From Candidatus Pacearchaeota archaeon (GTDB taxonomy: Archaea; Nanobdellota; Nanobdellia; UBA10117; JAFCGI01), in assembly GCA_017608235.1 (NCBI GenBank), contig JAFCGI010000005.1:1-46929 (forward strand): a stretch of 46,929 nt of DNA, read 5' to 3'. Every line of letters starts with the position of its first letter. Positions within the stretch are counted from its first letter, which is position 1. The position numbers were made by a program, and so were the translations under genes. Positions 2,607 through 34,427 of the stretch are shown in pieces. A model generated the notes under the pieces. The model did no database searches and was not told the DNA's origin. It saw nothing but the letters and a program-made list of their open reading frames with translations.

Positions 2607-3905
2607 ATGAAACTTAAATATATTGATTTAAAATATAAACCAACAGATAATGATTTAGTTTGTGAATATTATATTGAACCTACTGATGGTTATACTTTAG
2701 AAGAGGTTTCTGAGCATGTTGCAGGAGAAAGTTCTATTGGAACTTGGACTAGTATTTCTACTATGAAGCCAAGAATTGCTGAAAAACTTAAGCCACATGT
2801 TTATAGTATAGATAAACAAACCAATGAAATAAAAGTAGCATATAATTCTGAGCTATTTGAAGCTGGAAACATGCCTGAGATAATGTCTAGTATTGGGGGA
2901 AATATCTATGGAATGAAGGCTGTTAGAAACTTAAGATTGCAAGATATAAGTTTTCCTAAAAGTATTCTAAGATCCTTTAAAGGACCTTTATTCGGAATTT
3001 ATGGGATCAGAAGGATGCTAAAAGTTAAAGATAGGCCTTTAACAGGCACTATAGTTAAGCCTAAAGTAGGATTAAACGAGAAAGAACATGCTAAGGTAGC
3101 CTATGATTCTTGGGTTGGCGGATTAGATGCTGTTAAAGATGATGAGAATCTCAGTTCTATGAAATTTAATAAATTTGATAAAAGAGCTAAAGAAACCCTA
3201 AAAATGAGAGATCTTGCTGAGCAAGAAACTGGAGAAAAGAAAGTTTATTTTGCAAATGTTACTGCTGAGACTAAAGAAGCTCTAAGAAGAGCTAGATTAG
3301 TTAAGAGCTTAGGTGGAGAATATATAATGTTTGATATTGTAACTGGTGGTTGGGGTACTCTTCAAGCACTAAGAGAAGCAGATTTAGGGTTAGCAATACA
3401 TGCTCATAGGGCAGGACATGGAATGTTTACAGAAAATCCATATCATGGCATGTCAATGCTTACATTAGCTAAGATATCCAGACTTATAGGCGTAGATCAG
3501 ATTCATATTGGAGCTATCGTAGGCAAGATGAAAGGTTCTGAAGAAGATGTAAAAAACATTGCTAAAGAAATCTCAGATATGTATATCTCTGAAGACAAAG
3601 AAGCTAAAATGCTAAAGCAAGACTGGGGAAAGATTAAGCCAATATTTCCTGTATGTTCTGGAGGAATGCATCCTGGCTTGATTCCTGCTCTGATGAATAT
3701 TCTAGAAACTGATATAATAATTCAATGTGGTGGCGGTGTACATGGACATAAGAAAGGTACTCAGCAAGGAGCAACTGCTGTAAGGCAAGCTGTAGACGCT
3801 GCTCTTAAAGAGATTCCTTTGGATAAATATGCTAAAGATCATAAAGAATTAAAAATTGCAATAGATCAGTGGGGCTTTGAGCCTGTCAAAAAAGGAGAGC
3901 GTTAA
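2607..3905 (+). CDS. rbcL: Ribulose-1,5-bisphosphate carboxylase/oxygenase, archaeal form III
   Basis: TGTIVKPKVGL, GGLDAVKDDEN (carbamylated Lys), HAHRAGHGMF, GKMKGS loop 6, SGGMHPG, QCGGGVHGH. Confidence 0.97.
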   Translation: MKLKYIDLKYKPTDNDLVCEYYIEPTDGYTLEEVSEHVAGESSIGTWTSISTMKPRIAEKLKPHVYSIDKQTNEIKVAYNSELFEAGNMPEIMSSIGGNIYGMKAVRNLRLQDISFPKSILRSFKGPLFGIYGIRRMLKVKDRPLTGTIVKPKVGLNEKEHAKVAYDSWVGGLDAVKDDENLSSMKFNKFDKRAKETLKMRDLAEQETGEKKVYFANVTAETKEALRRARLVKSLGGEYIMFDIVTGGWGTLQALREADLGLAIHAHRAGHGMFTENPYHGMSMLTLAKISRLIGVDQIHIGAIVGKMKGSEEDVKNIAKEISDMYISEDKEAKMLKQDWGKIKPIFPVCSGGMHPGLIPALMNILETDIIIQCGGGVHGHKKGTQQGATAVRQAVDAALKEIPLDKYAKDHKELKIAIDQWGFEPVKKGER

Positions 3906-3945: not shown

Positions 3946-4980
3946 ATGAAGACTGATTATAAATATATTGTATATTTAATTACTATTCTAGGATTCTTAA
4001 TCCTGTCTTTCATGCTTTTACAACCATATTTTACAGTTATAATATTTTCAGCGATTGTAGCATATTTACTGTCTCCAGTGTATAAAAAATTAGCACATAG
4101 GCTGTCAATGAATGTGTCTGCGGTACTGATTACTTTATTATTATTTGGTATTTCTATTATTGCTTTAAGATATGGTTTAGAGTTCTTGCTAAATGAAACA
4201 GTTAGGATTTATATGTTGGTTAGCAAACTTCCTCCAACATTAATAAATACAGAATCTGCTGTTGCGTTTAATGCAAAGGATATTATAAGTTTTATAATTA
4301 ATGAAATGATCATAAGACTATCAAATCAATTACATAAACTTCCTGGAATAATGCTATCTTTTGTGGTATTCTTTATTTCTTTCTTTTACTTCTTAAGAGA
4401 TGGACATAAATTATCTATACAGCTAAAGAAAATGTTGCCTCTTCCATCTGATAAGAAAAGTATGATGTTTAAAGAGATAAAAATTACTGTTAATGCTTAT
4501 GTTTATGTACAATTAGTTGTTGGATTGATACAAGGACTAGTAGGTGGAATTGGTTTCTATATATTTGGATTACCATATCCATTGATAGCAGGTATAGCTA
4601 TGGGTATATTATCTTTCCTCCCGATAATCGGTCCATATCTTATTTATTTACCTGTAGGAGTTATAAGTATACTACAAGATAATTGGCTTACTGGTATTGG
4701 AATTATAATTTATGGTGTAACTATTATGGGTTTCTTAGATTATGTAGTAAGGCCGCAATACATGAGTAGAAGAGCAAACATACACCCATTAATAGTTCTT
4801 TTAGGTTTCCTAGGTGGAATGCATGTTATGGGTGCTATGGGAATCATAATTGGTCCTATATTGCTATCTATAGCAGCAATCACAATTAAAGATATAGGAA
4901 AACATACTTGGGCAGAGGTCCTTAAATTAGGTCCTTCTGAAAAGGAGAAAGGCAATGAAACTAAAGAGCCGAATATATAA
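3946..4980 (+). CDS. AI-2E transporter family (PerM/YdiK-like) membrane protein
   Basis: Multiple TM segments; family-typical C-terminal region ending VRPQYMSRRANIHPLIVLLGFLGG. Confidence 0.88.
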   Translation: MKTDYKYIVYLITILGFLILSFMLLQPYFTVIIFSAIVAYLLSPVYKKLAHRLSMNVSAVLITLLLFGISIIALRYGLEFLLNETVRIYMLVSKLPPTLINTESAVAFNAKDIISFIINEMIIRLSNQLHKLPGIMLSFVVFFISFFYFLRDGHKLSIQLKKMLPLPSDKKSMMFKEIKITVNAYVYVQLVVGLIQGLVGGIGFYIFGLPYPLIAGIAMGILSFLPIIGPYLIYLPVGVISILQDNWLTGIGIIIYGVTIMGFLDYVVRPQYMSRRANIHPLIVLLGFLGGMHVMGAMGIIIGPILLSIAAITIKDIGKHTWAEVLKLGPSEKEKGNETKEPNI

Positions 4981-6448
4981 CATAGATGCTCGAGGAAGCT
5001 ATATTGTTGTTCTTAATCCAAAGCTAATAGAGTTATTTGATCTTAAACCTATGGATAAAGTAAGGATTATGAGTTCTAATAAATATTTAGTAGCAGTAGC
5101 AAATTCTTCTGAAGAACTTAAAGATGATGAAATTGGCATATTTGTAGATGTTAAAGAGAAATTAAAGATAGTAGATGGTGAATTAGTTACTGTGCTTCCA
5201 GAGGAAAGATTATCTTCAATAACAGCAATACGGAAGAAAATGGATAATAAAGCATTGAATCAGAAAGAATTCTATGATATTGTTACTGATATTGTTGATA
5301 GAAGACTTACAAAGGCAGAGATCGCATACTTTATTGCTTCTGCATATATGAGAAAATTTTCTATGGAAGAGGTTGAATATATGGTTAGATCAATGTCAGA
5401 AACAGGAGATGTTATAACTTGGGATGAAAAACCAATCATAGACAAACATTGTATTGGTGGAATTGGTGGTAATAGAACTACTATGTTAGTTGTGCCTATT
5501 GTTGTTGCATCTGGATTAAAGATGCCAAAAACATCTTCTAGATCTATTACAAGTCCAGCAGGTACTGCAGACACAATGGAAGTGCTAACAAGAGTTAGTT
5601 TTGATGATGTTGCTGAGATCAAAACAATAGTTAACAAAACTGGTGGATGTATGGTATGGGGCGGATCTTTAGATTTAGCTCCTGCAGATGATGATATTAT
5701 AAAAATAGAACATCCATTAAGTTTAGATCCTACTCCTATGTTGCTTTCTAGCATTATGGCTAAAAAATATGTTGCTGGAGCAACTCATGTTTTGATTGAT
5801 ATTCCTGTTGGTGAATTTTCAAAGGTTAAAACACTTAAAGAATATAATGATCTAAGGAAAAAGTTTATTGATCTTGGTAAGAGGTTGAATATAAAAGTAG
5901 AGGTTATAAAGACTCCAGGAAACCAGCCAATAGGTAATGGATTAGGTCCAGCATTAGAAGCAAGAGATGTTTTATGGACATTAGAAAGAGACAAACGCGC
6001 ACCTCAGGATTTAAGAGAAAAATCTATTTATATGGCTGGAATTTTGTTGGAGATGGGTGGAAAGGCTAAAAAAGGGCAAGGTAAAAAATTAGCTAAGAAA
6101 ATTTTAGATTCTGGAAAAGCCTTGAAGAAATTTAAAGAAATAATTTCTGCACAAGATGGTGCTTCTAAATCAATTTCTGGAGATAAAATTAAGCTTGGAA
6201 AAATAGTTTATGAAGTAAGATCTACAAGACATGGGAAAATTTCTGTGGTTAATGATGATATATTATCAAAAGCTGCCAGACTCGCTGGAGCACCTTATGA
6301 TAAGAAAGCAGGACTTTATTTGAATGTGCATATTGGAGACAAAGTAAAGGTTGGAGATATTTTGTTTACTATATATTCTGAAACTGAAAATCATTTAGAT
6401 GATGCTGCAACTTATGTGCAGAGAAACAAACCTATAACAATTAGTTAA
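4955..6448 (+). CDS. deoA: AMP phosphorylase (archaeal DeoA family)
   Basis: GGIGGNRTTMLVVPIVVASGL, TSSRSITSPAGTADTMEVL, GGxLDLAPADD; N-terminal extension typical of archaeal AMP phosphorylase. Confidence 0.95.
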   Translation: MKLKSRIYNIDARGSYIVVLNPKLIELFDLKPMDKVRIMSSNKYLVAVANSSEELKDDEIGIFVDVKEKLKIVDGELVTVLPEERLSSITAIRKKMDNKALNQKEFYDIVTDIVDRRLTKAEIAYFIASAYMRKFSMEEVEYMVRSMSETGDVITWDEKPIIDKHCIGGIGGNRTTMLVVPIVVASGLKMPKTSSRSITSPAGTADTMEVLTRVSFDDVAEIKTIVNKTGGCMVWGGSLDLAPADDDIIKIEHPLSLDPTPMLLSSIMAKKYVAGATHVLIDIPVGEFSKVKTLKEYNDLRKKFIDLGKRLNIKVEVIKTPGNQPIGNGLGPALEARDVLWTLERDKRAPQDLREKSIYMAGILLEMGGKAKKGQGKKLAKKILDSGKALKKFKEIISAQDGASKSISGDKIKLGKIVYEVRSTRHGKISVVNDDILSKAARLAGAPYDKKAGLYLNVHIGDKVKVGDILFTIYSETENHLDDAATYVQRNKPITIS

Positions 6449-19024: not shown

Positions 19025-20833
19025 TTAGCTAAACTCTAATTTAGCATTAGAAGTTAGTGCTGCTAGTATCTTTTTTCCTATTTTGGTTTTCTTAAAAATT
19101 TTGATTTCGTTTTTTCTAGATACTGGCAGACTAGAAATTCTTTCTCCATTAATATAAAGATCTGCAAGCTTTCTTGGCTTAGATAGCTGGAACACAAGAT
19201 ACTTTTTGCTTTCTCTAAGATTATATTTTAAATTGCTAGGAATATATCTTTCCTCTTCAACTAGAGGACGAACATCAATTCCTATTCCTAGATCTTCTTC
19301 TATAGATTTAATTCTAGAGCCTTTAGTTCCAAGAACTTGCGGAATATGTTCTTCTGATACAAATAATGCATATTTGTTTGGAGCCAACTCTTCTACTTCC
19401 AGAGGAATGTTTAACATTTTTCCTAAATGTTCTTTGATTGCTCTTTCAAGTATTAATGTGGTCTTGCTTTTCTTTTGTTTTCTTACAGGAATTATTACTG
19501 TTTGTTCTCCATATGTATAAGCTTCATATTTTAGTTCATTTGTTATGAAGTCTGTTATATCTATAACTGGACGAGCTAGATCTGCTTCTGTCATTCCACT
19601 AGGAACTTTAACTGTTATTTTCAAAGAAAGTACTTGTGATATTAATCCCTTTTCTATGAATATTATAGTATCAATTATAGATGGAATCATCCCTAGTTCT
19701 ATTCTTCCTATAAATCTTTGCATTGCTTCTATTGGTGCAGTTGCATGTATTACTCCTACCATTCCTACTCCTGCTAGTCTTAGATCTGAATATAGTCTAA
19801 AGTCATTAGTGTTTCTCATTTCATCAAAAATTGCATAGTCTGGACGAGTGAGAAGCATTATATCATGTAGCTCTTGTGGAGTCCCTTTTGAAATTGCATA
19901 TTGTGTAATGTTACTAGGAAGATATAAGTCACGAGGAGCTTCTAGAGTTTTTACGATTTTGTTTTTAGAAGCATAATTTATTGCAACTGCCTGAGCAAAA
20001 GTAGTTTTTCCATTTCCTGGTGCACCTGCAATTAAGATTCCTTCTGCTTTTTCTTCTATTCTGTGCAGTAATTTTGGATCTAAACCATATTCTTTTATGG
20101 ATAATTTTTTTACAGGACGAACTATAGTTATTTCCCAACCGTCTGAAAATGGGGGCTTAGTTATTACAATTCTATAATTTTTCAGCTGAGCTATTATGCT
20201 GCCTTTACGTTCTATTTCTAGAAACGATTCAGAATCTGATTTAGCTATTTCAACTATTTCTTCTGCAAGTTTTTCTATACTTTCTGCAGTAGCTGCCCTT
20301 TTATTGATTTTTACAAATTTCCAATTTCCTGGAGAACCTGCTTTTGCAAACATCTGCTCTTTTTCTCTTATGTGAACAGACATAAAATTTGGTTTAAATA
20401 ATTTAACAAAACTCCATTCTCTTTCTGGAAGTATGTATTCATGGAAGAGCACATTCATACCCATTGCTTCTGCTACTTCTGCTTGAACTTTATCAGAAGT
20501 TAATAATGCAGAATCATGGTCCCAAGCAGATTGTCTTATAATTGCATCAATTTCTCCTTTCTTTGCATGCTTTATTTCTATTGGTTTAGGACGAGAACCC
20601 TCAAATTTTAATTGAAATAGATTTTGTTTTTCAAGTTCTGATAATTTTTTTAGTTCATCTAATCCAAGAAATCCTACTTCTCGATTTTGATTAGCTTGAT
20701 TTTCTAATTCTGCTATGATTGCATTATGTATTATAATTGTAGAAACTGAGATTTTTTTATTTTCTATATCTCTTGAAAGAACTCCATTAATTATTGCAGA
20801 TGTGTCTGGAACTATTGACTTGTATTTTGCCAT
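19025..20833 (-). CDS. PIN domain / PilT-like ATPase / KH domain protein
   Basis: N-term PIN VPDTSAIINGVL, Walker A GAPGNGKTTFAQAVA, DYAIFDEMRN, KH-like QVLGTKGSRIKSIEEDLG. Confidence 0.93.
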   Translation of the reverse strand: MAKYKSIVPDTSAIINGVLSRDIENKKISVSTIIIHNAIIAELENQANQNREVGFLGLDELKKLSELEKQNLFQLKFEGSRPKPIEIKHAKKGEIDAIIRQSAWDHDSALLTSDKVQAEVAEAMGMNVLFHEYILPEREWSFVKLFKPNFMSVHIREKEQMFAKAGSPGNWKFVKINKRAATAESIEKLAEEIVEIAKSDSESFLEIERKGSIIAQLKNYRIVITKPPFSDGWEITIVRPVKKLSIKEYGLDPKLLHRIEEKAEGILIAGAPGNGKTTFAQAVAINYASKNKIVKTLEAPRDLYLPSNITQYAISKGTPQELHDIMLLTRPDYAIFDEMRNTNDFRLYSDLRLAGVGMVGVIHATAPIEAMQRFIGRIELGMIPSIIDTIIFIEKGLISQVLSLKITVKVPSGMTEADLARPVIDITDFITNELKYEAYTYGEQTVIIPVRKQKKSKTTLILERAIKEHLGKMLNIPLEVEELAPNKYALFVSEEHIPQVLGTKGSRIKSIEEDLGIGIDVRPLVEEERYIPSNLKYNLRESKKYLVFQLSKPRKLADLYINGERISSLPVSRKNEIKIFKKTKIGKKILAALTSNAKLEFS

Positions 20834-25409: not shown

Positions 25410-27479
25410 TTATTTTTCTAAAGAATAAGTCAGTGCATCTATTATTTTTTTAGAATTATCTTTAAAATTAATTGCATAGAATGGAATATATGCTTGTTTT
25501 TTGTTTGTTACTTTAATACTTAGATCATTTAACATATTAATTATTGTTTGCTCTTCAATGTTTTGAGAAACTTTTTGAGCTTCTATACTTATATATTCTG
25601 GTTTATCTAAGAAGTTAAGTTTAGAAATATTCCCAAATATATTTAGAGTCTGTAATGGATAAACTTCTTTATCTTTTAATTCTATAACTCCTCTAGCTAC
25701 TAATGAATCTACTACCCCTGTAACCTCTCCAAAGCTTAGATTGGTTTCAACAAATAATTCTGAAAGTGTGCTTTTGGGCTTTTTACTAATTGCTACTAGT
25801 ACTTTTTTTTGCATTGGAGATAAATTATTTAGTCCTGAAAATAGATTTATTTTTTTTAGATTATCATCTAAATCATATAAAGAATTTGAAGTTAGATCAA
25901 ATACAAGTTGAGCAGTTTCAGACCCGCTTTCACAATGAACAACTAAGCATGGAGATAATACAAGTCCAACAGAATCAATTTCTTTTTCTTCCATATTTTT
26001 TACTTCTTTGATTGCAATTCTTGGTTTAAAAATTAGATCTAAGGTTGCATCCTGACTTACTTCTGATTTAATTGGCTCTTCATTAAAATTAAATGTCTCT
26101 GCTCGTCCACCATGTTTTGATTTTCTTACTCTTACATCTACAAAAATAGGATAGTCTGAAACACCTATTACTAGGGCTTTACCAGTTGGAAGGCTTCTTA
26201 TTTCATTTTCTGTTTCTGATGTTACTCCTTCAAATGATGTTGATATTGCTTTTAGATCATTAGGATTAGTTACTTGCAAAGAGATTTGGCTTGTACACTG
26301 AGAGAGAACATTTTTATCTGCTCTTGCAGGGCGCTGAGAGACTATCGCCATCCCTAATCCAAATTTTCTTCCTTCAGAAGCAATTGTTCTAAGAATTCTT
26401 GAAGACTTTGCTTCTCCAAATCCTCTCTCTGGAAGAAAATTATGTGCTTCTTCTATAATTAAGAAAAAAGGAGGTATGTTATTAAGCTTTCTTTGCTCAA
26501 AAAGATTGCTTGCAAGAGAATGTACTGCAATTTGTTGAAGTTCTATTGGTGCACCTTTTAGATTTATTATTGATAGTTGATTTGGTCTTATTAAATCTAA
26601 TGGAGTGGTTGGTTGAATTGAAAACAAATTTGTTTTTTCTAGATTCTCTATAGCATTTATTAGACTCCATTTAGCATTTGTATCTATCATTTCCAGTATG
26701 CTAATTATATCTTGAAAGTCAAACTTAGACTTTCTTTCTTTTAATTCAGTTACTGCACTGTAAAGTAAGCCTTTTTGTGCATTTGTTATCTTAAATGGTA
26801 GGCTTTCTACTATATCAAAAGGATTTCCAGGAATCTCAAGTTTTAGTTGCTCACATTCTGGATTTAATGATGTGTTTAGAGCATATTCCTTTACTTTTTC
26901 TCTAAATCCTTGAGGATTTATGTCATAGAGTTTAAAGTATTTTTTATCTTCTGGATCTTCATTTGAATATTTAATTGATGAATACTCTCCATGAGGATCA
27001 ATAATTATTACAGGAACTCCAAGATTAGCTAATTCTTCAAGAATTACACCTATTGTATATGATTTTCCTGCGCCGCTTTTTGCTAATATTGCAAGATGTT
27101 TTGTGATTAGCTTTTCTGGATCTATGAATGCTTTAAGAGTTTCTTTACCTTCAAGAAGGCCAAGATAGATTCCCTTTTTCATTAAACCAAGAGTAGATTC
27201 AATAAAAGAATCATCTGCTGCGAGAACATCTGCTCCTGGTTCTAATGGTGTTCTAGGTTTTCTTAAGAAGCCTCGCTCTGTTCTATAACCTATTATATTA
27301 GAATCTGCTATAGTGTCATGAGATTTCTCTATTTCTGTAACTTGTGCAAGAACCCAACTTTCAGAAGGATGTTTTACTTTGATATAATCCCATTTCTTTA
27401 CTTTACGATCTACTATAAATCTGAATTTTGAAGTGGAGGTTTTATCTGCAACTCTTCCTAGGGCTTGCATGCTTTCCAT
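25410..27479 (-). CDS. herA: HerA-like ATPase with HAS-barrel and C-terminal winged-helix-like tail
   Basis: Walker A LAKSGAGKSYT, IDPHGEYSS, Walker B FFLIIEEAHNFLPE, SEGRKFGLGMAIVSQRPA; C-term LSPMQKKVLVAISKKPKSTLSELFVE. Confidence 0.92.
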   Translation of the reverse strand: MESMQALGRVADKTSTSKFRFIVDRKVKKWDYIKVKHPSESWVLAQVTEIEKSHDTIADSNIIGYRTERGFLRKPRTPLEPGADVLAADDSFIESTLGLMKKGIYLGLLEGKETLKAFIDPEKLITKHLAILAKSGAGKSYTIGVILEELANLGVPVIIIDPHGEYSSIKYSNEDPEDKKYFKLYDINPQGFREKVKEYALNTSLNPECEQLKLEIPGNPFDIVESLPFKITNAQKGLLYSAVTELKERKSKFDFQDIISILEMIDTNAKWSLINAIENLEKTNLFSIQPTTPLDLIRPNQLSIINLKGAPIELQQIAVHSLASNLFEQRKLNNIPPFFLIIEEAHNFLPERGFGEAKSSRILRTIASEGRKFGLGMAIVSQRPARADKNVLSQCTSQISLQVTNPNDLKAISTSFEGVTSETENEIRSLPTGKALVIGVSDYPIFVDVRVRKSKHGGRAETFNFNEEPIKSEVSQDATLDLIFKPRIAIKEVKNMEEKEIDSVGLVLSPCLVVHCESGSETAQLVFDLTSNSLYDLDDNLKKINLFSGLNNLSPMQKKVLVAISKKPKSTLSELFVETNLSFGEVTGVVDSLVARGVIELKDKEVYPLQTLNIFGNISKLNFLDKPEYISIEAQKVSQNIEEQTIINMLNDLSIKVTNKKQAYIPFYAINFKDNSKKIIDALTYSLEK

Positions 27480-27540
27480 GCATTATTTTTTAGGAGCCAA
27501 TATATATAAAGTTATGTGGAATTAAGAATAGATTAATTAG

Positions 27541-30534
27541 TTATTCAAAATTGATTGGAATATGTGTCCTATTCATTATTATATCTAAATAATTATTTGG
27601 TGCTTGTCCTAAGAAAAGTCTTCGTAAATATCTATCTTGTATTCTATCATTAACTAATATTTTTGGTAGCTCACTAATTGAACCTTCTTTTAGGTTTCCC
27701 TTCATGTTTCTTTTTATACCAAAAAATCTTTCTAAATAATAGTCTTTATCAATTTCGCCATTCATGAAATCTTCTCTATTTACAATTATACTTTCTCCAT
27801 CTTCAATAATACGTCCTGCTTCTATAAAAGCTCCTTTATCCATTTCATATCTGTACCTTTTTCTTAGCTCTAGTGCTATTTTATATCTACTAGAATGTCT
27901 ATCTTTATATTCGTGCAATGGTCTTCTGAGAGTATATCTAAATAATAATTCTTCTTTATTTTCAAATATATTTTTAGTTTCTTGTTCAAGATATTCAAAT
28001 GCAGGTTCTTTACCTTGTGTAATTAATATATTATAAAAATTATATTTGACTCTTTTTTCATAAGGTATCAAGCTTAGCTTGCCGAAAATATCAACTCCTT
28101 CTGTGAATCTGCGAGCTCCTTTAGCTGATATCGCTTTACCAATAACTCTTCCTCTTTCTAAGCTTATTGCATATTCTAATCTTTCTTGTAATTTTAAATG
28201 AGGTGCATTATCCAATAAGTTTTGTGTTTCTTCTACTGAATTTGGAGACTGAATAAATAAATACCTTGGTGTTGCATTTATTATTTCAAGATTGTTTGCT
28301 TCTAAGAAATTTAATGTTTCTGCTGCTGTGTCTTTAATTCGTGATATTATATCTTCTATTTTCTTGATGGTTGTATTTTCCAAAAATTCAGAAATTGCAT
28401 CTTTGCAACTATATAGTTGTTTAGTATATTTTCTTTCATAATAACGTCTTCCTAATCTAGGACGAGTCATGGTTTCTTTTGTATATGCATAGCTTTTAGT
28501 CCAAAAAACAATTTCCTCACATAAAAAATCAAGATACTTTTGACAAATTAAATCATACAATGAATTTTTAGCTTGTCTTGTTTTATCTATTAGCCATGAA
28601 ACTCTTTGGTCTTTTCTTAATATTTCTTCTAATGCATCACTTAAAAAGGTAGTACTAAGCAGATATATATTTTCAAATTCTCCTGTTTTGACTTTAGAAG
28701 GGATATTATTTGGAGTATCTAATGATCTCTGAGCTTGATCATAATACTCTATTTCTTTTGTTATAGCACTATACCCTTTACTTGCTAACAATTTTAATTT
28801 CTCTTTCCATAAATCAAACTTTTCTAAAATAAGTTCTGGTTTTTTTGGTCTAGAATAATCAATCACTCTATATCTAGATCTATTTTTTCTAAAATATTTA
28901 TTTTTCTCAAAAAATGCACGATCTAAAGTTTTTCTTGCTATTACAGATACTGAATTCATTGATGCTTCAGAAATACTAGCTCCCGAAACTAATGCAATAT
29001 CTATTATTGCTTCTCCTACTTGCTCCCAAAGATCTATTGTTGCTCTAACATCTTCTAATCCATATTTAATAACTGCTTCTATAGCTTGTTGACGTTCTTC
29101 TTGAGAATTTTGGAATTCTAATAAATTCTCTAGATCATCATAGCTTTCTAATCTAATTCCCTGAAGTTCCTTAGTGAAATTAATTAAAGCTCTTTCGGTG
29201 CAACCTTCTAATTTATTGTTTAAACTATCAATATAATTTACAAAAATTCCTACAGTATCAAAACCATGCAATGCAGAAGTCCAAACTCTCTTATAGAATC
29301 CACCGCTTAACCTTCTAATATGTGAGAAGTCATATCCAGGTGTAAAAACTCCATATTTATTAAATAATTGGGTCATTCTAACTTTATATCTATCTAATAA
29401 TTCTTGTCTAAAAAATTGTCTTAGTTTTGATCTTGTTTCTTCAGATAGAGTATTTTCATTGATTGCATATTTTAATTGTTTAAATTTGCTTTGAATATCT
29501 GGATAAAGCTTGTTTAATTCTGTAATTAAAAAATCTGGAAATTCAGAGCTTTTTAATTTTTTAAATTGTATATTTTCTTGGCTTTCTATCTCTTGTCTGA
29601 AATGTTCCAGATATGGTGGTATTCCTTCTAATATTTCTTCTGCTAATTCTTTAAGATATTCTGATTTTCTCCATCTAAATATATTAACTTCTTCTTCTAA
29701 CCTGTTTCTTCTGGTTTCACTTGATTCAGATATTAGTTGAAGTTCTCTATCATCAAAGTTGTGTTTATTATGTCCTACATCAAAAGGAGATCTTATTTGA
29801 TTATATAGCCAAGAAGTAACTAATACTTCTATTAATTCGTTTTTACAAGAAATAACTCCTCCAGTCTCTAAACTCTTATCACAATTCTTTGCATCAAAAA
29901 CTTTGAATACTGAACCATCTTCTTGTGTTATATCTTGAATATTTTGAATATCTGTTATAGCCCATTTCCTATTATCAGAAGATGTACGATATTCTATAGA
30001 ATTAAGATAAATATTTGGATCTCTAGGATCTTCTGGTTTCCAATATTGAAGTTCAATATCTTCTCCGAGGATTCCTTTTTCCAATAAAGCTGAAACATCT
30101 AAGTTTTGAGAGAATTTAATAGGTCCTTCTACTGAAGCTTTAGAAAAAGGAAATTGAGCTGTCCATTTTGCAACAGTCTTTATTGGTATAAGATTTTTTA
30201 GTTTTTTATCATTATTAGTTTCAAAAAAACCTATCAATTTTTTTTCAGGGTCTTCTATTATTTTCTTAAAGAAATATGGTGCACTTATTTGATAAATAAC
30301 ACCTGCTTTAGTAGTTCTTATTCTTTTTGGAGATCTGTGATGCGTTTTCATTCGCTCTAGAAAAATTATTTCTTCTGTTGAGCTAAGAGGTTCTGTGAAA
30401 AAAGGATATTGCAATTGTCTTTTTCTTTCAACTATTTTGTTATCTAGCCATATATAATAAGTTATATTTAAAGGATCTTTATGATTTACACCAACATCAA
30501 TTAATATTCCTTCAAGACCTTCTTGATTTTTCAT
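27541..30534 (-). CDS. Inactivated family B DNA polymerase homolog
   Basis: PolB-like blocks NELIEVL..GHNKHNFDDREL (ExoII), YGLEDVRATIDLW (ExoIII), C-terminal RRPLHEYK; motif A Asp replaced by Ser, motif C DTD replaced by ATP. Confidence 0.85.
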   Translation of the reverse strand: MKNQEGLEGILIDVGVNHKDPLNITYYIWLDNKIVERKRQLQYPFFTEPLSSTEEIIFLERMKTHHRSPKRIRTTKAGVIYQISAPYFFKKIIEDPEKKLIGFFETNNDKKLKNLIPIKTVAKWTAQFPFSKASVEGPIKFSQNLDVSALLEKGILGEDIELQYWKPEDPRDPNIYLNSIEYRTSSDNRKWAITDIQNIQDITQEDGSVFKVFDAKNCDKSLETGGVISCKNELIEVLVTSWLYNQIRSPFDVGHNKHNFDDRELQLISESSETRRNRLEEEVNIFRWRKSEYLKELAEEILEGIPPYLEHFRQEIESQENIQFKKLKSSEFPDFLITELNKLYPDIQSKFKQLKYAINENTLSEETRSKLRQFFRQELLDRYKVRMTQLFNKYGVFTPGYDFSHIRRLSGGFYKRVWTSALHGFDTVGIFVNYIDSLNNKLEGCTERALINFTKELQGIRLESYDDLENLLEFQNSQEERQQAIEAVIKYGLEDVRATIDLWEQVGEAIIDIALVSGASISEASMNSVSVIARKTLDRAFFEKNKYFRKNRSRYRVIDYSRPKKPELILEKFDLWKEKLKLLASKGYSAITKEIEYYDQAQRSLDTPNNIPSKVKTGEFENIYLLSTTFLSDALEEILRKDQRVSWLIDKTRQAKNSLYDLICQKYLDFLCEEIVFWTKSYAYTKETMTRPRLGRRYYERKYTKQLYSCKDAISEFLENTTIKKIEDIISRIKDTAAETLNFLEANNLEIINATPRYLFIQSPNSVEETQNLLDNAPHLKLQERLEYAISLERGRVIGKAISAKGARRFTEGVDIFGKLSLIPYEKRVKYNFYNILITQGKEPAFEYLEQETKNIFENKEELLFRYTLRRPLHEYKDRHSSRYKIALELRKRYRYEMDKGAFIEAGRIIEDGESIIVNREDFMNGEIDKDYYLERFFGIKRNMKGNLKEGSISELPKILVNDRIQDRYLRRLFLGQAPNNYLDIIMNRTHIPINFE

Positions 30535-30588
30535 AAAGATAAGTCTAGTGCAAATGCTTTTAAGCTTTTTTTTTCAGGTAAATGTAAA

Positions 30589-31734
30589 ATGATAGCAGAT
30601 ATTCTTTCATATCTAAAAATATCTGATCCTTTGATTAGTCCTGCTAGAATAGAAAAACTTCATAGAAATTGGGAAGAAAGGGAATGGCAAGCATCTGGTC
30701 ACTTGGAAGAAATTTTGCAATTTGAAGAAGCTAGATTAGATGTTCCTTATGCTAACACAATGTTTGGTTCTTATAGAACATATCATGAAGAAATTAAATC
30801 TAGACTTAGAGAACTTAGAGGTAAAACAATTCTATTTATTGATGGAATCTCGGAAACAAAAGGAGGAAGAATTACAACAGGATATTCTATGTTTTCTCAT
30901 TTGTTTGAATTAACTAATAAAATTTTAGAACGGCAAAAGAAAATATATGATAAATATAAAAATAATTTTCCATATCCTAGAGAGATGTTTAAAGATTTTT
31001 ATATTGTTTCAATAGCTCCAGTTCTATTTGTTTCTCATACTATTATAGATAATAATAGAATTCCTTGGTTAATACATCCATTTCAAGATACTATAGATGC
31101 TGTAAATGATCATATGGATATTATTGTAGGTAGACTTTCTATTTGGGGAAAATTAAAAAAGAAATATGTTAATCCAAATCAGGCATATTTTAGTATTGAT
31201 GATTTAAAAGAATTTAGTGAAATAAAACAAGCATTCTTTAGGAGATCTTTATTTATTCCCAGCGAAGCAAAGAAAATCTTCGCTAGGAAGGTTGCATATC
31301 TATATAAAAAAGCTGCAGAAGAAATTGGACAAGAATTAAATTATGATAGTGCATTAGAACAAGCAAATGATGAAATTGATTTATATTGTAAGCTTTGCCG
31401 TAGAGTGTTAGCTGAAGAATATAAGCCAATATTTTCTGAACTTGGCCTTGAACAAGACAATTATATTTGGTTTTATGGAAATAGAAATTCATTTGTTACA
31501 AAAATGTTTGAAGAAGACAAAGAGATTAGAGTAGTAAGTAATGAATTACTTCCCCCTTACAGACTAACTAGTAGAGAAAAATATGTAATTAGACATATTG
31601 ATATTGCAAGAGGACAGGGATATAGGTCTATTCAAGAAACATCTCTTAATATAATTGAAACTCTACTCGAGACTTATTTATTAGATAGAGAAGACTATAA
31701 AGACTATAATCCACAAACAAGGTTAGAAATATGA
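30589..31734 (+). CDS. Unassigned protein in PolB/HerA/Cas4-like module
   Basis: Starts MIADILSYLK; divergent from PolB-like gene, overlaps next ORF; contains TILFIDGISETKGGR. Confidence 0.75.
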   Translation: MIADILSYLKISDPLISPARIEKLHRNWEEREWQASGHLEEILQFEEARLDVPYANTMFGSYRTYHEEIKSRLRELRGKTILFIDGISETKGGRITTGYSMFSHLFELTNKILERQKKIYDKYKNNFPYPREMFKDFYIVSIAPVLFVSHTIIDNNRIPWLIHPFQDTIDAVNDHMDIIVGRLSIWGKLKKKYVNPNQAYFSIDDLKEFSEIKQAFFRRSLFIPSEAKKIFARKVAYLYKKAAEEIGQELNYDSALEQANDEIDLYCKLCRRVLAEEYKPIFSELGLEQDNYIWFYGNRNSFVTKMFEEDKEIRVVSNELLPPYRLTSREKYVIRHIDIARGQGYRSIQETSLNIIETLLETYLLDREDYKDYNPQTRLEI

Positions 31735-32957
31735 GAAAGCAATGCATATATGAAAAATTTATTCCTTGCAGAGGACCTGGATGTGCACATAGTTCTAGAA
31801 CTAGACTTAGAAATGAAAATATTGGATGTATGCTAGATTTATTCTTAGAAAAGGAACCCTATGCAGAAGAGTTTGAAAGATCTATCCAAGAACTGGTTAG
31901 AGAAGATACTTTTGATAATCAATTTAGTTTAATGCCTATAGAATTTGTTGAGAATGCTATTAAGTTCTGGAAAAATCTTGATACTGATATTTTTTTTACT
32001 GGGTTTACAGACGCAAATAACAATCCGGAAATGCGTAATCTTCTTTGGACATATCTTAGAAAAGGTTTTGAATTAGAAAGATTGGTTGATATTCCTCTTC
32101 CTAAAAATACAGACCATCAGATAAGATCTAGTTCTTTATATTCTAGTTGTGCTATTCAACAATTACTTTCTAATCTTGATGATAGAAAAGTTGCAGAACA
32201 TTTTAATGAAAAATACATAGAAAATGAATTATCTAGAATAGGTACTTGGGAGCATCATATTTGTTTAGATCAGGGAGATTTTCCAAGTTTATTTCATAAT
32301 AATAATTGGAGTCCTCCTGGATCTAGAAATAATACAGAAAAAACAATTCTTTATCGCCAGAAAATATATGCAAATAATTATATTGGAGTTAAGGGACATG
32401 CAGATGCCTCTTGGATCTTAAAAAGAGGAGATCATGTTAGAGCTATTTTAATATATGATCAAAAACATAGGATGGCTTCACAAACAGAAGTTCCTGGAAT
32501 TTTATGGCAACTACTTTCTTATGCAATTGGTATCTCCCAATGCCTTTCGATTGATCCAGATTTCTATGTGCTTATATCTGGCAAGAGGCCTTTTAAAGAT
32601 CCAAATGAGTTAAATTATGATCTAGAAAATTATAGAAGTCCTGTACTTAAATTTACTATTATACAAGCAGACAGACATAATGAAAAATTAAGAGAGTTTT
32701 ATGAACAAGTATATAGAAGTTATATATCACAATCAAAAATACTGTATGATTATGATGCTGTAATGGAATATAAAGCTAGAATGGAAAAAACTAAAGAGAA
32801 TGGTTGTACTAGTTGTGGGTATAATCGAGATAGAGATTGCTTTTCAAAGCAAATTTGTGATTTGATATTTGCTAATATGCAGCCAGAACAATTACTAAGC
32901 ACAAAACTCTTAGAATTAATTGGTGCTAGAAGTCCAGATTATCATTTACCTGTTTAA
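31731..32957 (+). CDS. Cas4/RecB-like PD-(D/E)XK nuclease with Fe-S cysteine cluster
   Basis: GHADASWIL...AILIYDQKH...WQLLSYAIGIS and C-terminal CTSCGYNRDRDCFSKQIC (CX2CX7CX5C), N-terminal cysteines. Confidence 0.78.
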   Translation: MRKQCIYEKFIPCRGPGCAHSSRTRLRNENIGCMLDLFLEKEPYAEEFERSIQELVREDTFDNQFSLMPIEFVENAIKFWKNLDTDIFFTGFTDANNNPEMRNLLWTYLRKGFELERLVDIPLPKNTDHQIRSSSLYSSCAIQQLLSNLDDRKVAEHFNEKYIENELSRIGTWEHHICLDQGDFPSLFHNNNWSPPGSRNNTEKTILYRQKIYANNYIGVKGHADASWILKRGDHVRAILIYDQKHRMASQTEVPGILWQLLSYAIGISQCLSIDPDFYVLISGKRPFKDPNELNYDLENYRSPVLKFTIIQADRHNEKLREFYEQVYRSYISQSKILYDYDAVMEYKARMEKTKENGCTSCGYNRDRDCFSKQICDLIFANMQPEQLLSTKLLELIGARSPDYHLPV

Positions 32958-33010: not shown

Positions 33011-33475
33011 TTATTTATTTATTGCTGCGGTTTGTTTCTTTGTAGGTTTTGCTTGTTTCTTTAATTCTTTTTTCCTTTCTTTCTCTTCTTTTTCTTTTTC
33101 CTTTGGTTCTTCTTTCCTTTCTTTCTCTTCTTTTTCTTTTGGTTCTTCTAGGTTCTTTGCTTCAGTTTTTTTCTTTAGTTTCTCTGCTTCTTTCTTTGCT
33201 CTTTCTTCTTTTCTTTTAACTCTTTCAGGAAGTTCTGGAAGTTCTGCTCTTATAACCTCTCCTTCTCTTTCTATCTTTACTCTGATTTTTTGTGGAGGTC
33301 TTTTAGCTCCATCCTTCCAGATTTCTTCATTAATCCATTTACTTAGAATTATTTTTTTAGCTTTAGTATGTTTCGCAAGAAATGCTTTTACTTCATCCAT
33401 AGCTCGCTTACTTCTTCTCCAAATTGGAACTTTGCTGTATTCTTTCTTTAATGGAATTGTGTATGTTTCTACCAT
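33011..33475 (-). CDS. rpl31e: Ribosomal protein L31e with long K/E-rich C-terminal extension
   Basis: YTIPLKKEYSKVPIWRRSKRAMDEVKAFLAKH core; repetitive EKEEKERK tail. Confidence 0.94.
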   Translation of the reverse strand: MVETYTIPLKKEYSKVPIWRRSKRAMDEVKAFLAKHTKAKKIILSKWINEEIWKDGAKRPPQKIRVKIEREGEVIRAELPELPERVKRKEERAKKEAEKLKKKTEAKNLEEPKEKEEKERKEEPKEKEKEEKERKKELKKQAKPTKKQTAAINK

Positions 33476-33476
33476 T

Positions 33477-33650
33477 TTATGCTCTTATTTTGTCTCTCTT
33501 CCAGTTCCTTTTTTTGGCGGTGATTCTTGCTGGATGAAGTCTTCTTCCTTTTCCAAATATTTTGGGAATTAACCAGAATGGTGCCCATCTAGTGTGCTTT
33601 TTAGCACTGATGAGTCTTTTTTTCTTAACCGCTGATTTTATACTTCCCAT
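33477..33650 (-). CDS. rpl39e: Ribosomal protein L39e (not in the ORF track)
   Basis: Manual translation MGSIKSAVKKKRLISAKKHTRWAPFWLIPKIFGKGRRLHPARITAKKRNWKRDKIRA. Confidence 0.93.
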   Translation of the reverse strand: MGSIKSAVKKKRLISAKKHTRWAPFWLIPKIFGKGRRLHPARITAKKRNWKRDKIRA

Positions 33651-33651
33651 T

Positions 33652-33978
33652 TTATTTTTTTATATTAAATTGTTTTTTTCCTTGGTTGATCTCAAGGAGC
33701 AATTCCTTGAGTTTTTGATCATCTATAACTTCTTTGAGTTGCCCATATTGTGCTGCTTGAAGCAGCAACATTTCAATTTGTTCTGCAAGTTCGGGATGTC
33801 CTATTCTTAAATTATTTAGCCGTTCTCTTGCTTCTTTAGTTAGATATTTTTGTAACACCTTTGATTTCAGATGTTCTATTTGTTGTATAGTTGCTTGTTC
33901 TTGAACATTATTTTGTTGTTCAAGCACTTTTTTTTGTAGTTCTTCAAGCCTCCTTTGTTTTGCTTCTTCAAGAGTCAT
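33652..33978 (-). CDS. PDCD5-related DNA-binding protein
   Basis: YLTKEARERLNNLRIGHPELAEQIEMLLLQAAQYGQL. Confidence 0.93.
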   Translation of the reverse strand: MTLEEAKQRRLEELQKKVLEQQNNVQEQATIQQIEHLKSKVLQKYLTKEARERLNNLRIGHPELAEQIEMLLLQAAQYGQLKEVIDDQKLKELLLEINQGKKQFNIKK

Positions 33979-34427
33979 TTCTTTTTAATCATACCTGAAT
34001 CAACAGCAACTTTATTTGCTGCATTGTTTAATAGTGATTGTCCTTTTGAAGTTATTATTCTGCCTTTGTTAATTTGAGTTTCTTCAACTTTTTTAATTAA
34101 TCCTGATGTTTCTAATTGTTGCATTATTTTTCTGATTATAGATCCAGATCCTTTCTTGAATTTTTCTGGTCGTCTACCACGGTTTTTTCTTCCGCCATAT
34201 TTTGATCTTAATTTTGAAACACCTATTGGTCCATTCTTATAGATTGTTCTAAGTATTGATGCAGATCTTATATACCACCAATCTTTCTCCATAGGAGGTC
34301 TTTCATTATGATTTCCTGTTTTAACAAAATTAGCCCATTCTGGAGGCTGAACTAAATCTGCAGATTTGAGTTCTTCTGCTATCTGTTTTGCTAATTTTTC
34401 TGCTGGTACATCATATATTGAAACCAT
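33975..34427 (-). CDS. rps19e: Ribosomal protein S19e
   Basis: WWYIRSASILRTIYKNGPIGVSKLRSKYGGRKNRG. Confidence 0.96.
   Translation of the reverse strand: MVSIYDVPAEKLAKQIAEELKSADLVQPPEWANFVKTGNHNERPPMEKDWWYIRSASILRTIYKNGPIGVSKLRSKYGGRKNRGRRPEKFKKGSGSIIRKIMQQLETSGLIKKVEETQINKGRIITSKGQSLLNNAANKVAVDSGMIKKK

Follow-up and report, generated by a model that had tools for sequence, protein, structure and literature searches.

A head-to-head gene pair of Woesearchaeota-type DPANN archaea with a predicted polymerase-dead, exonuclease-intact PolB derivative and a Cas4-like nuclease

Introduction

Some archaeal B-family DNA polymerases (PolBs) have lost catalytic residues. Archaeal PolB2 has a disrupted Exo I motif and still carries the distal Asp of motif C (PMC2527604), and inactivated PolB2 proteins have been described in which both sites are disrupted (PMC2527604, PMC4104785, PMC7544198). 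Here, we analyze a stretch of 46,929 nucleotides from a Candidatus Pacearchaeota archaeon (contig JAFCGI010000005.1 of assembly GCA_017608235.1), called hereafter the window, its organism being the host. In this window a gene for a PolB-like protein stands head to head with genes for a protein of no known family, the N-domain, and for a Cas4-like nuclease. We call this set the module. In the labels used below, G numbers are genomes, L numbers are loci, C numbers are host contigs, f17 is a family, and g22 is a genus.

The module resembles several described systems and differs from each of them. As in PolB2/Dpo2 (PMC2527604, PMC4104785), its PolB-like protein is of the B family, has broken polymerase motifs, occurs beside an active PolB, and has partner genes and a proposed role in repair. 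However, the loss in PolB2 affects Exo I and spares the distal Asp of motif C, whereas the module PolBs keep the exonuclease residues and lose motifs A and C. The partners identified also differ: a RadA-like protein and arCOG07300 for PolB2, a Cas4-like nuclease for the module. The original prediction for this DNA had invoked the inactivated PolBs of Rogozin et al., a link that fails because the module PolBs have the opposite motif pattern (PMC2527604). The B7 PolBs of Woesearchaeota and Pacearchaeota (PMC7544198) come from the same kind of hosts and are also of the B family, but by their published description, on which this comparison rests, they fall within the bacterial Pol II-like G1 group, while the module PolBs are devoid of the palm catalytic motifs. 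The C-terminal inactivated module of Pol epsilon (PMC2669801, PMC7544198) is likewise a polymerase-dead PolB kept for another function. It is called an inactivated polymerase-exonuclease module, whereas the module PolB keeps the exonuclease residues, is a separate protein, and has a nuclease partner.

The partner nuclease shares with Cas4, RecB, AddB, and Dna2 the PD-(D/E)XK core, the RecB-type motifs, and four cysteines, of which one precedes the core and three follow it. It differs from them in falling below the Cas4 cut-offs, in being joined to the N-domain, in having a PolB derivative as partner, and in carrying no helicase in the protein. Finally, the window is reminiscent of the HerA-NurA (Mre11-Rad50) systems, with genes for an ATPase and a nuclease side by side and an expected function in DNA-end processing. 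Yet the N-domain is not detectably NurA, the adjacency of HerA is not conserved, and NurA coexists with the module elsewhere.

Results

The conserved unit is a head-to-head pair

Profile searches revealed 15 loci in a single archaeal class, spread over 12 of its families, in which a PolB-like gene is head to head with the N-domain and the Cas4-like nuclease. The divergent gaps range from -42 to 173 bp and measure 6 to 62 bp in 12 of the 15 loci. The N-domain and the Cas4-like domain make up a single protein in ten loci and are two genes in the window, L010, L044, and L055; the contig of L046 stops after the N-domain. The recurrence of the pair in 14 other genomes is more than chance.

Initial searches used the single window proteins against 279 genomes of the same phylum and gave few, mostly weak, matches. 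Four genomes (G266, G015, G034, and G087) were found using the N-domain or the Cas4-like query alone, and all four have a PolB-like gene head to head. Since these adjoining PolB-like genes were not used in the search, their recovery is not circular. A profile of six PolB-like proteins matched many further relatives, and genuine PolBs weakly, and forty more neighborhoods were fetched. Searching 371 genomes with a profile of the fused N-domain/Cas4 protein revealed no additional N-domain locus at a distance from a PolB-like gene, a recount that is partly circular, because 10 of the 15 loci served to build the profile, except for the first four loci. The other matches of this profile were short and covered only the nuclease core. 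In a sixteenth genome (G232), a Cas4-domain match and a PolB-like gene are on separate contigs, the latter gene at the edge of a 5-kb contig. Single-sequence scans of genome and viral collections gave no match, and one alignment scan gave only L145 and L146, whose records are named Candidatus Woesearchaeota. G309 belongs to the order of the window.

The original prediction had grouped these genes with a HerA-like gene into a four-gene module. The comparison with the neighborhoods of the 14 other loci bears out the co-localization of the PolB-like, N-domain, and Cas4-like proteins in relatives and does not extend it to HerA. The conserved unit is the head-to-head pair, not the four genes.

The PolB-like protein has lost its polymerase site and keeps exonuclease residues

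The PolB-like gene (27541-30534, minus strand; 997 amino acids) is the core of the module. Pfam gave no match to the window protein by itself, and NCBIfam none that is credible. More generally, single sequences of the PolB-like, N-domain, and Cas4-like proteins yielded no convincing library annotation, and we therefore relied on relatives to test what the PolB-like and Cas4-like proteins are. The PolB-like family profile matches archaeal PolB structures in the PDB (2e-21), and hhalign aligns it with active PolBs of the same class at 98.5% probability over 484 columns. A hidden Markov model (HMM) of active PolBs matches the window protein in two collinear segments, with E-values that are relative given the small database. 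The profile homology spans the exonuclease and the palm/thumb and places the protein in the B-family superfamily, with a B-family fold predicted from the profiles.

Three exonuclease motifs can be recognized in the window protein, all encoded on the minus strand. Motif alignment located Exo I (D159-x-E161, in GEDIE; 30052-30060) and Exo III (Y491-xxx-D495, in YGLED; 29050-29064). Exo II (N256...F260-D261, in GHNKHNFDD, amino acids 254-262; 29752-29769) was assigned by eye, as the aligner misplaced it because of a long insertion preceding Exo III. The same alignment located two relics on this strand: that of polymerase motif A, TGEFENIYLLSTTFL (28642-28686), lacks the catalytic Asp, and that of the motif C region (EIINATPRYLF...; 28243-28287) lacks the DTD. 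This pattern holds for all 15 module PolBs: Exo I retains its Asp and Glu, Exo II and Exo III each retain their Asp, the Asp of motif A and the DTD of motif C are absent, and motif B is unrecognizable. Exceptions are found only beyond the acidic set, with L053 lacking the Exo II Asn and L058 the Exo III Tyr. Active PolBs in the same alignment run retain their polymerase motifs, and the host has its own canonical active-type PolB on contig C19 (PF00136, 2e-63).

Selection for 3'-5' exonuclease chemistry would best explain why exonuclease residues are kept at about 20% overall identity and polymerase motifs are lost. On its motifs, the PolB-like protein is thus predicted to be polymerase-dead with intact exonuclease residues, and to be more than a dead scaffold. 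The catalytically dead scaffold of the original prediction is accurate for the lost polymerase site and inaccurate for the DEDDy exonuclease residues, which are retained in the window and in its relatives. An AlphaFold2 model of the PolB-like protein of L145, built from a three-sequence alignment, had a predicted local distance difference test score (pLDDT) of 33, too low to inform on the fold.

More families of polymerase-dead, exonuclease-intact PolBs, for which an N-domain/Cas4 partner was undetected, are at L057, L059, L066, L068, L072, L075, L076, and L078. Among these partnerless genes, the one of L076 is divergent from an SMC-like gene and the one of L068 adjoins a helicase-like gene. 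In f17, most sampled genomes have a partnerless polymerase-dead PolB, near apparent RIO1, KH, DnaG, and TopoVI genes. At L070, a divergent gene of about 700 amino acids was considered as a hidden partner and rejected, being by sequence an unrelated membrane protein. As a separate observation, an active-type PolB at L082 (5112-8888; 1258 amino acids) is interrupted at the YGD of motif C, its HMM match falling into two parts (577/574), which is consistent with an intein.

A Cas4-like nuclease joined to a domain without known relatives

The Cas4-like gene (31731-32957, plus strand) encodes 408 amino acids. In the family alignment, S134, C140, G171, H175, and E203 are invariant, and R132, D225, D243, K245, Q260, Y264, and C362 are nearly so. 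The fused profile adds C-x2-C-x9-C (L012 numbering), corresponding to C359, C362, and C376 of the window protein. The RecB/Cas4 PD-(D/E)XK set (H...D...(D/E)xK...QxxxY; in the window H175, D225, D243, K245, Q260, and Y264) is complete, with one cysteine (C140) before the core and three after it. The four conserved cysteines are predicted to be the ligands of a 4Fe-4S cluster. The alignment thus agrees with the Cas4/RecB-like Fe-S-type nuclease originally proposed. Pfam PDDEXK_1 matched 3 of 14 family members (best 3e-4). An assignment to CRISPR Cas4 (TIGR00372) was rejected: scores are far below the cut-off (best 0.0094 among fused members; 13.7 bits against 65 for the listed member).

The N-domain protein of the window (30589-31734, plus strand; 381 amino acids) has its counterpart in ten relatives as part of a fusion with the Cas4-like nuclease. 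It has no convincing match in the libraries or in the PDB. Two similarities, to PDB 5c8j (E 0.03) and to Pfam PARP_regulatory (0.0009, below cut-off and for one member only), were treated as chance. Detectable homology to NurA was also rejected: hhalign gave a probability of 0.8% against 30 NurA sequences of the same phylum, and Pfam NurA matched none of 14 members. Foldseek with the AlphaFold2 model of the window N-domain (pLDDT 47) found no match at E <= 0.001.

HerA and NurA

The HerA-like ATPase of the window (25410-27479, minus strand; 689 amino acids) is unambiguous, as proposed earlier: it has the DUF87/HerA core (Pfam DUF87, 4e-35; HerA_C, 3e-7) and matches the HerA structure 4d2i of the PDB (2e-27). 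Its gene and the PolB-like gene are co-directional and 61 bp apart. Among the 14 other paired loci, the flanks that were fetched contain HerA only once (L049), about 5 kb off and of a different HerA-like subtype. Eight of the 14 other genomes have a HerA orthologue (36-47% identity) on a contig other than that of the module; in G309 and G355 the module contigs span only 6-7 kb, and the distance to HerA is not established there. Judging from these flanks and contigs, the adjacency of HerA is specific to the window lineage. HerA is therefore dropped as a conserved member, and a HerA-NurA-type system that keeps HerA beside its nuclease partner does not fit the 14 other loci. Another HerA-like gene of the host is on C1. 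NurA was not detected in the host genome and is independently present in five module genomes (G034, G036, G079, G087, and G120). At L049 (10696-13359) and L050 (10965-13115), HerA-like genes have a Walker A GSGKC followed by L-GD, which is consistent with a P-loop intein.

Co-inheritance and dispensability of the pair

The pairwise divergences of the PolB-like and N-domain/Cas4 proteins are correlated (Mantel r 0.865, p 2e-4, to which shared species history contributes; r 0.69 without the two closest relatives). In both G034 and G120 of g22, the pair lies between a gene of about 600 amino acids and PCNA, near RNase J. In G016, of the same genus and listed as 100% complete, only 227 bp separate the same two flanking genes, which are kept; the site lacks the pair, and no match was found in the rest of the genome. 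The empty site (L185, 7978-10775) and an occupied one (L012, 1889-10011) share the same RNase J/PCNA neighborhood. Both parts are absent together at the same site; gain or loss concerns the pair as a whole, and the pair is dispensable. Genes of replication and repair turn up repeatedly around the loci: PCNA and/or RNase J are also near the module at L048 and L053, as at L012, and near the PolB-only loci L061, L062, L065, and L067; neighboring genes were identified mainly by reading protein sequences. The closest link to break repair that we saw is a Rad50-like ATPase, read from sequence, downstream of the PolB-like gene at L056 (9419-11485).

The spacer and the rest of the window

The four open reading frames (ORFs) and their strands are as originally placed, and the divergent spacer is confirmed at exactly 54 bp (30535-30588). 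The ORF of the N-domain has an alternative open TTG start at 30523, and the start of the Cas4-like ORF overlaps the end of the N-domain gene by 4 bp. The spacer has a single, central TATA-like stretch, CTTTTAAG, at 22 bp and 24 bp from the two start codons, and is probably a bidirectional promoter. Several spacers of 50-54 bp (window, L010, L011, L044, and L055) have one such central stretch about 20-25 bp from both starts, which would fit one bidirectional promoter and leaderless transcripts.

Beside the module, positions 33011-34427 of the window carry ribosomal L31e (Pfam) and an S19e-like gene. Similar ribosomal genes are within about 10 kb of the module at L013 (11471-12864), perhaps as remnant synteny. 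Elsewhere in the window, a RuBisCO large chain (2607-3905, plus strand) is close to a pyrimidine/AMP-phosphorylase-like gene (4955-6448, plus strand), which suggests the archaeal form III RuBisCO nucleotide pathway. A 602-amino acid protein (19025-20833, minus strand) combines matches to PIN, T2SSE-type ATPase, and KH in a single chain.

Discussion

The role in DNA repair or end processing originally suggested remains the best reading, which we infer from the conserved divergent module and its two nuclease-type sites. In our estimate, the chances are about even that the pair encodes an accessory two-nuclease module of Woesearchaeota-type DPANN archaea, conserved yet dispensable, that processes DNA ends or flaps as one complex. 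We hold somewhat more tentatively the specific version in which a polymerase lineage has turned into a dedicated 3'-5' exonuclease and forms, with the N-domain/Cas4-like Fe-S nuclease, a clamp-associated end/flap machine of DPANN. In such a mechanism, the PolB-like, N-domain, and Cas4-like proteins would assemble into one complex, with the N-domain bridging the two other subunits. The PolB body would hold primer-template-like or gapped DNA without copying it, while its exonuclease would trim 3' ends and the Cas4-like nuclease would cut the opposite strand (5' or single-stranded). A C-terminal tail resembling a PCNA-interacting peptide (PIP), present in many members and not visibly in the window copy, could anchor the complex on the PCNA clamp. 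The complex would likely act in replication-linked repair, by processing ends or flaps of DNA or forks that have stalled. HerA might add translocation in the window lineage and would not be required elsewhere.

Several points weigh against this reading. We infer physical association from gene order and from the fusion of two of the three parts only. Polymerase-dead PolBs are also present without an N-domain/Cas4 partner, and may for this reason have another role. PIP-like C termini occur in 9 of 32 polymerase-dead PolBs, compared with an expectation of 1.0 based on internal 9-mers of these proteins. This enrichment is suggestive only, because the pattern was chosen once the tails had been viewed and because the proteins are related to one another; no clear PIP match is seen in the window copy. 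The Cas4-like ORF of L010 lacks most of the C-terminal cysteines, perhaps through a frameshift. Lastly, the AlphaFold2 model of the window N-domain, built from a three-sequence alignment, is uninformative on its fold at a pLDDT of 47.

Other explanations must be considered. HerA ATPases pair with varied nucleases, and the HerA-like gene of the window adjoins the PolB-like gene in a genome in which NurA was not detected. The locus could thus encode a four-component resection machine, in which HerA pumps DNA into a nuclease complex that replaces NurA in this lineage. We regard this as unlikely: HerA does not adjoin the module at the other paired loci, with short module contigs limiting the view of more distant genes in G309 and G355, NurA is found alongside the module in five genomes, and HerA orthologues at 36-47% identity, against about 20% for the module proteins, point to a different evolutionary regime. 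The loss of the polymerase site would also fit a non-enzymatic scaffold, with a PolB-like protein whose only role is to bind DNA or partners, leaving the Cas4-like nuclease as sole activity, for which inactivated PolBs proposed as structural (PMC2527604, PMC7544198) are a precedent. This is improbable, since the retention of D, E, D, and D at such low identity while the palm motifs were lost is expected mainly under exonuclease selection, and PolB2 has the reverse pattern for Exo I.

Two nucleases degrading foreign DNA would form an antiviral defense system, as had also been suggested at the outset. The pair is patchy, dispensable, and lost or gained as a unit, and the window HerA scores against the defense HerA models of PADLOC. 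Yet this suggestion is unsupported, and we hold it to be very unlikely: the PolB-like, N-domain, and Cas4-like proteins have no PADLOC match, the loci are among housekeeping genes (PCNA, RNase J, and ribosomal proteins), the correlated divergence fits long co-inheritance, and no relative was found in the viral collections scanned. The pair could instead serve at the replication fork in the maturation of Okazaki fragments, as a flap nuclease akin to Dna2 that carries its own 3' exonuclease, and not in break repair. The nuclease of Dna2 is Cas4-like, PCNA, RNase J, and DnaG are among the neighbors, and many members have PIP-like tails. Against this, G016 dispenses with the pair and the module lacks a helicase domain, which makes such a role a long shot.

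We found no description of an exonuclease-intact, polymerase-dead PolB family with a Cas4-like partner in the open-access papers searched, supplements aside, and an earlier mention is possible. The inactivated archaeal PolBs in those papers have lost both activities or have been proposed as structural. If the present family has indeed abandoned synthesis and retained proofreading-type residues, it would be a polymerase turned nuclease. Its fixed pairing with a Cas4-like nuclease, most often in fusion with a domain without known relatives, makes it a directly testable candidate for an undescribed DNA-processing complex. The repair biology of DPANN is poorly known, and the module offers a handle to annotate protein families that have so far remained nameless.

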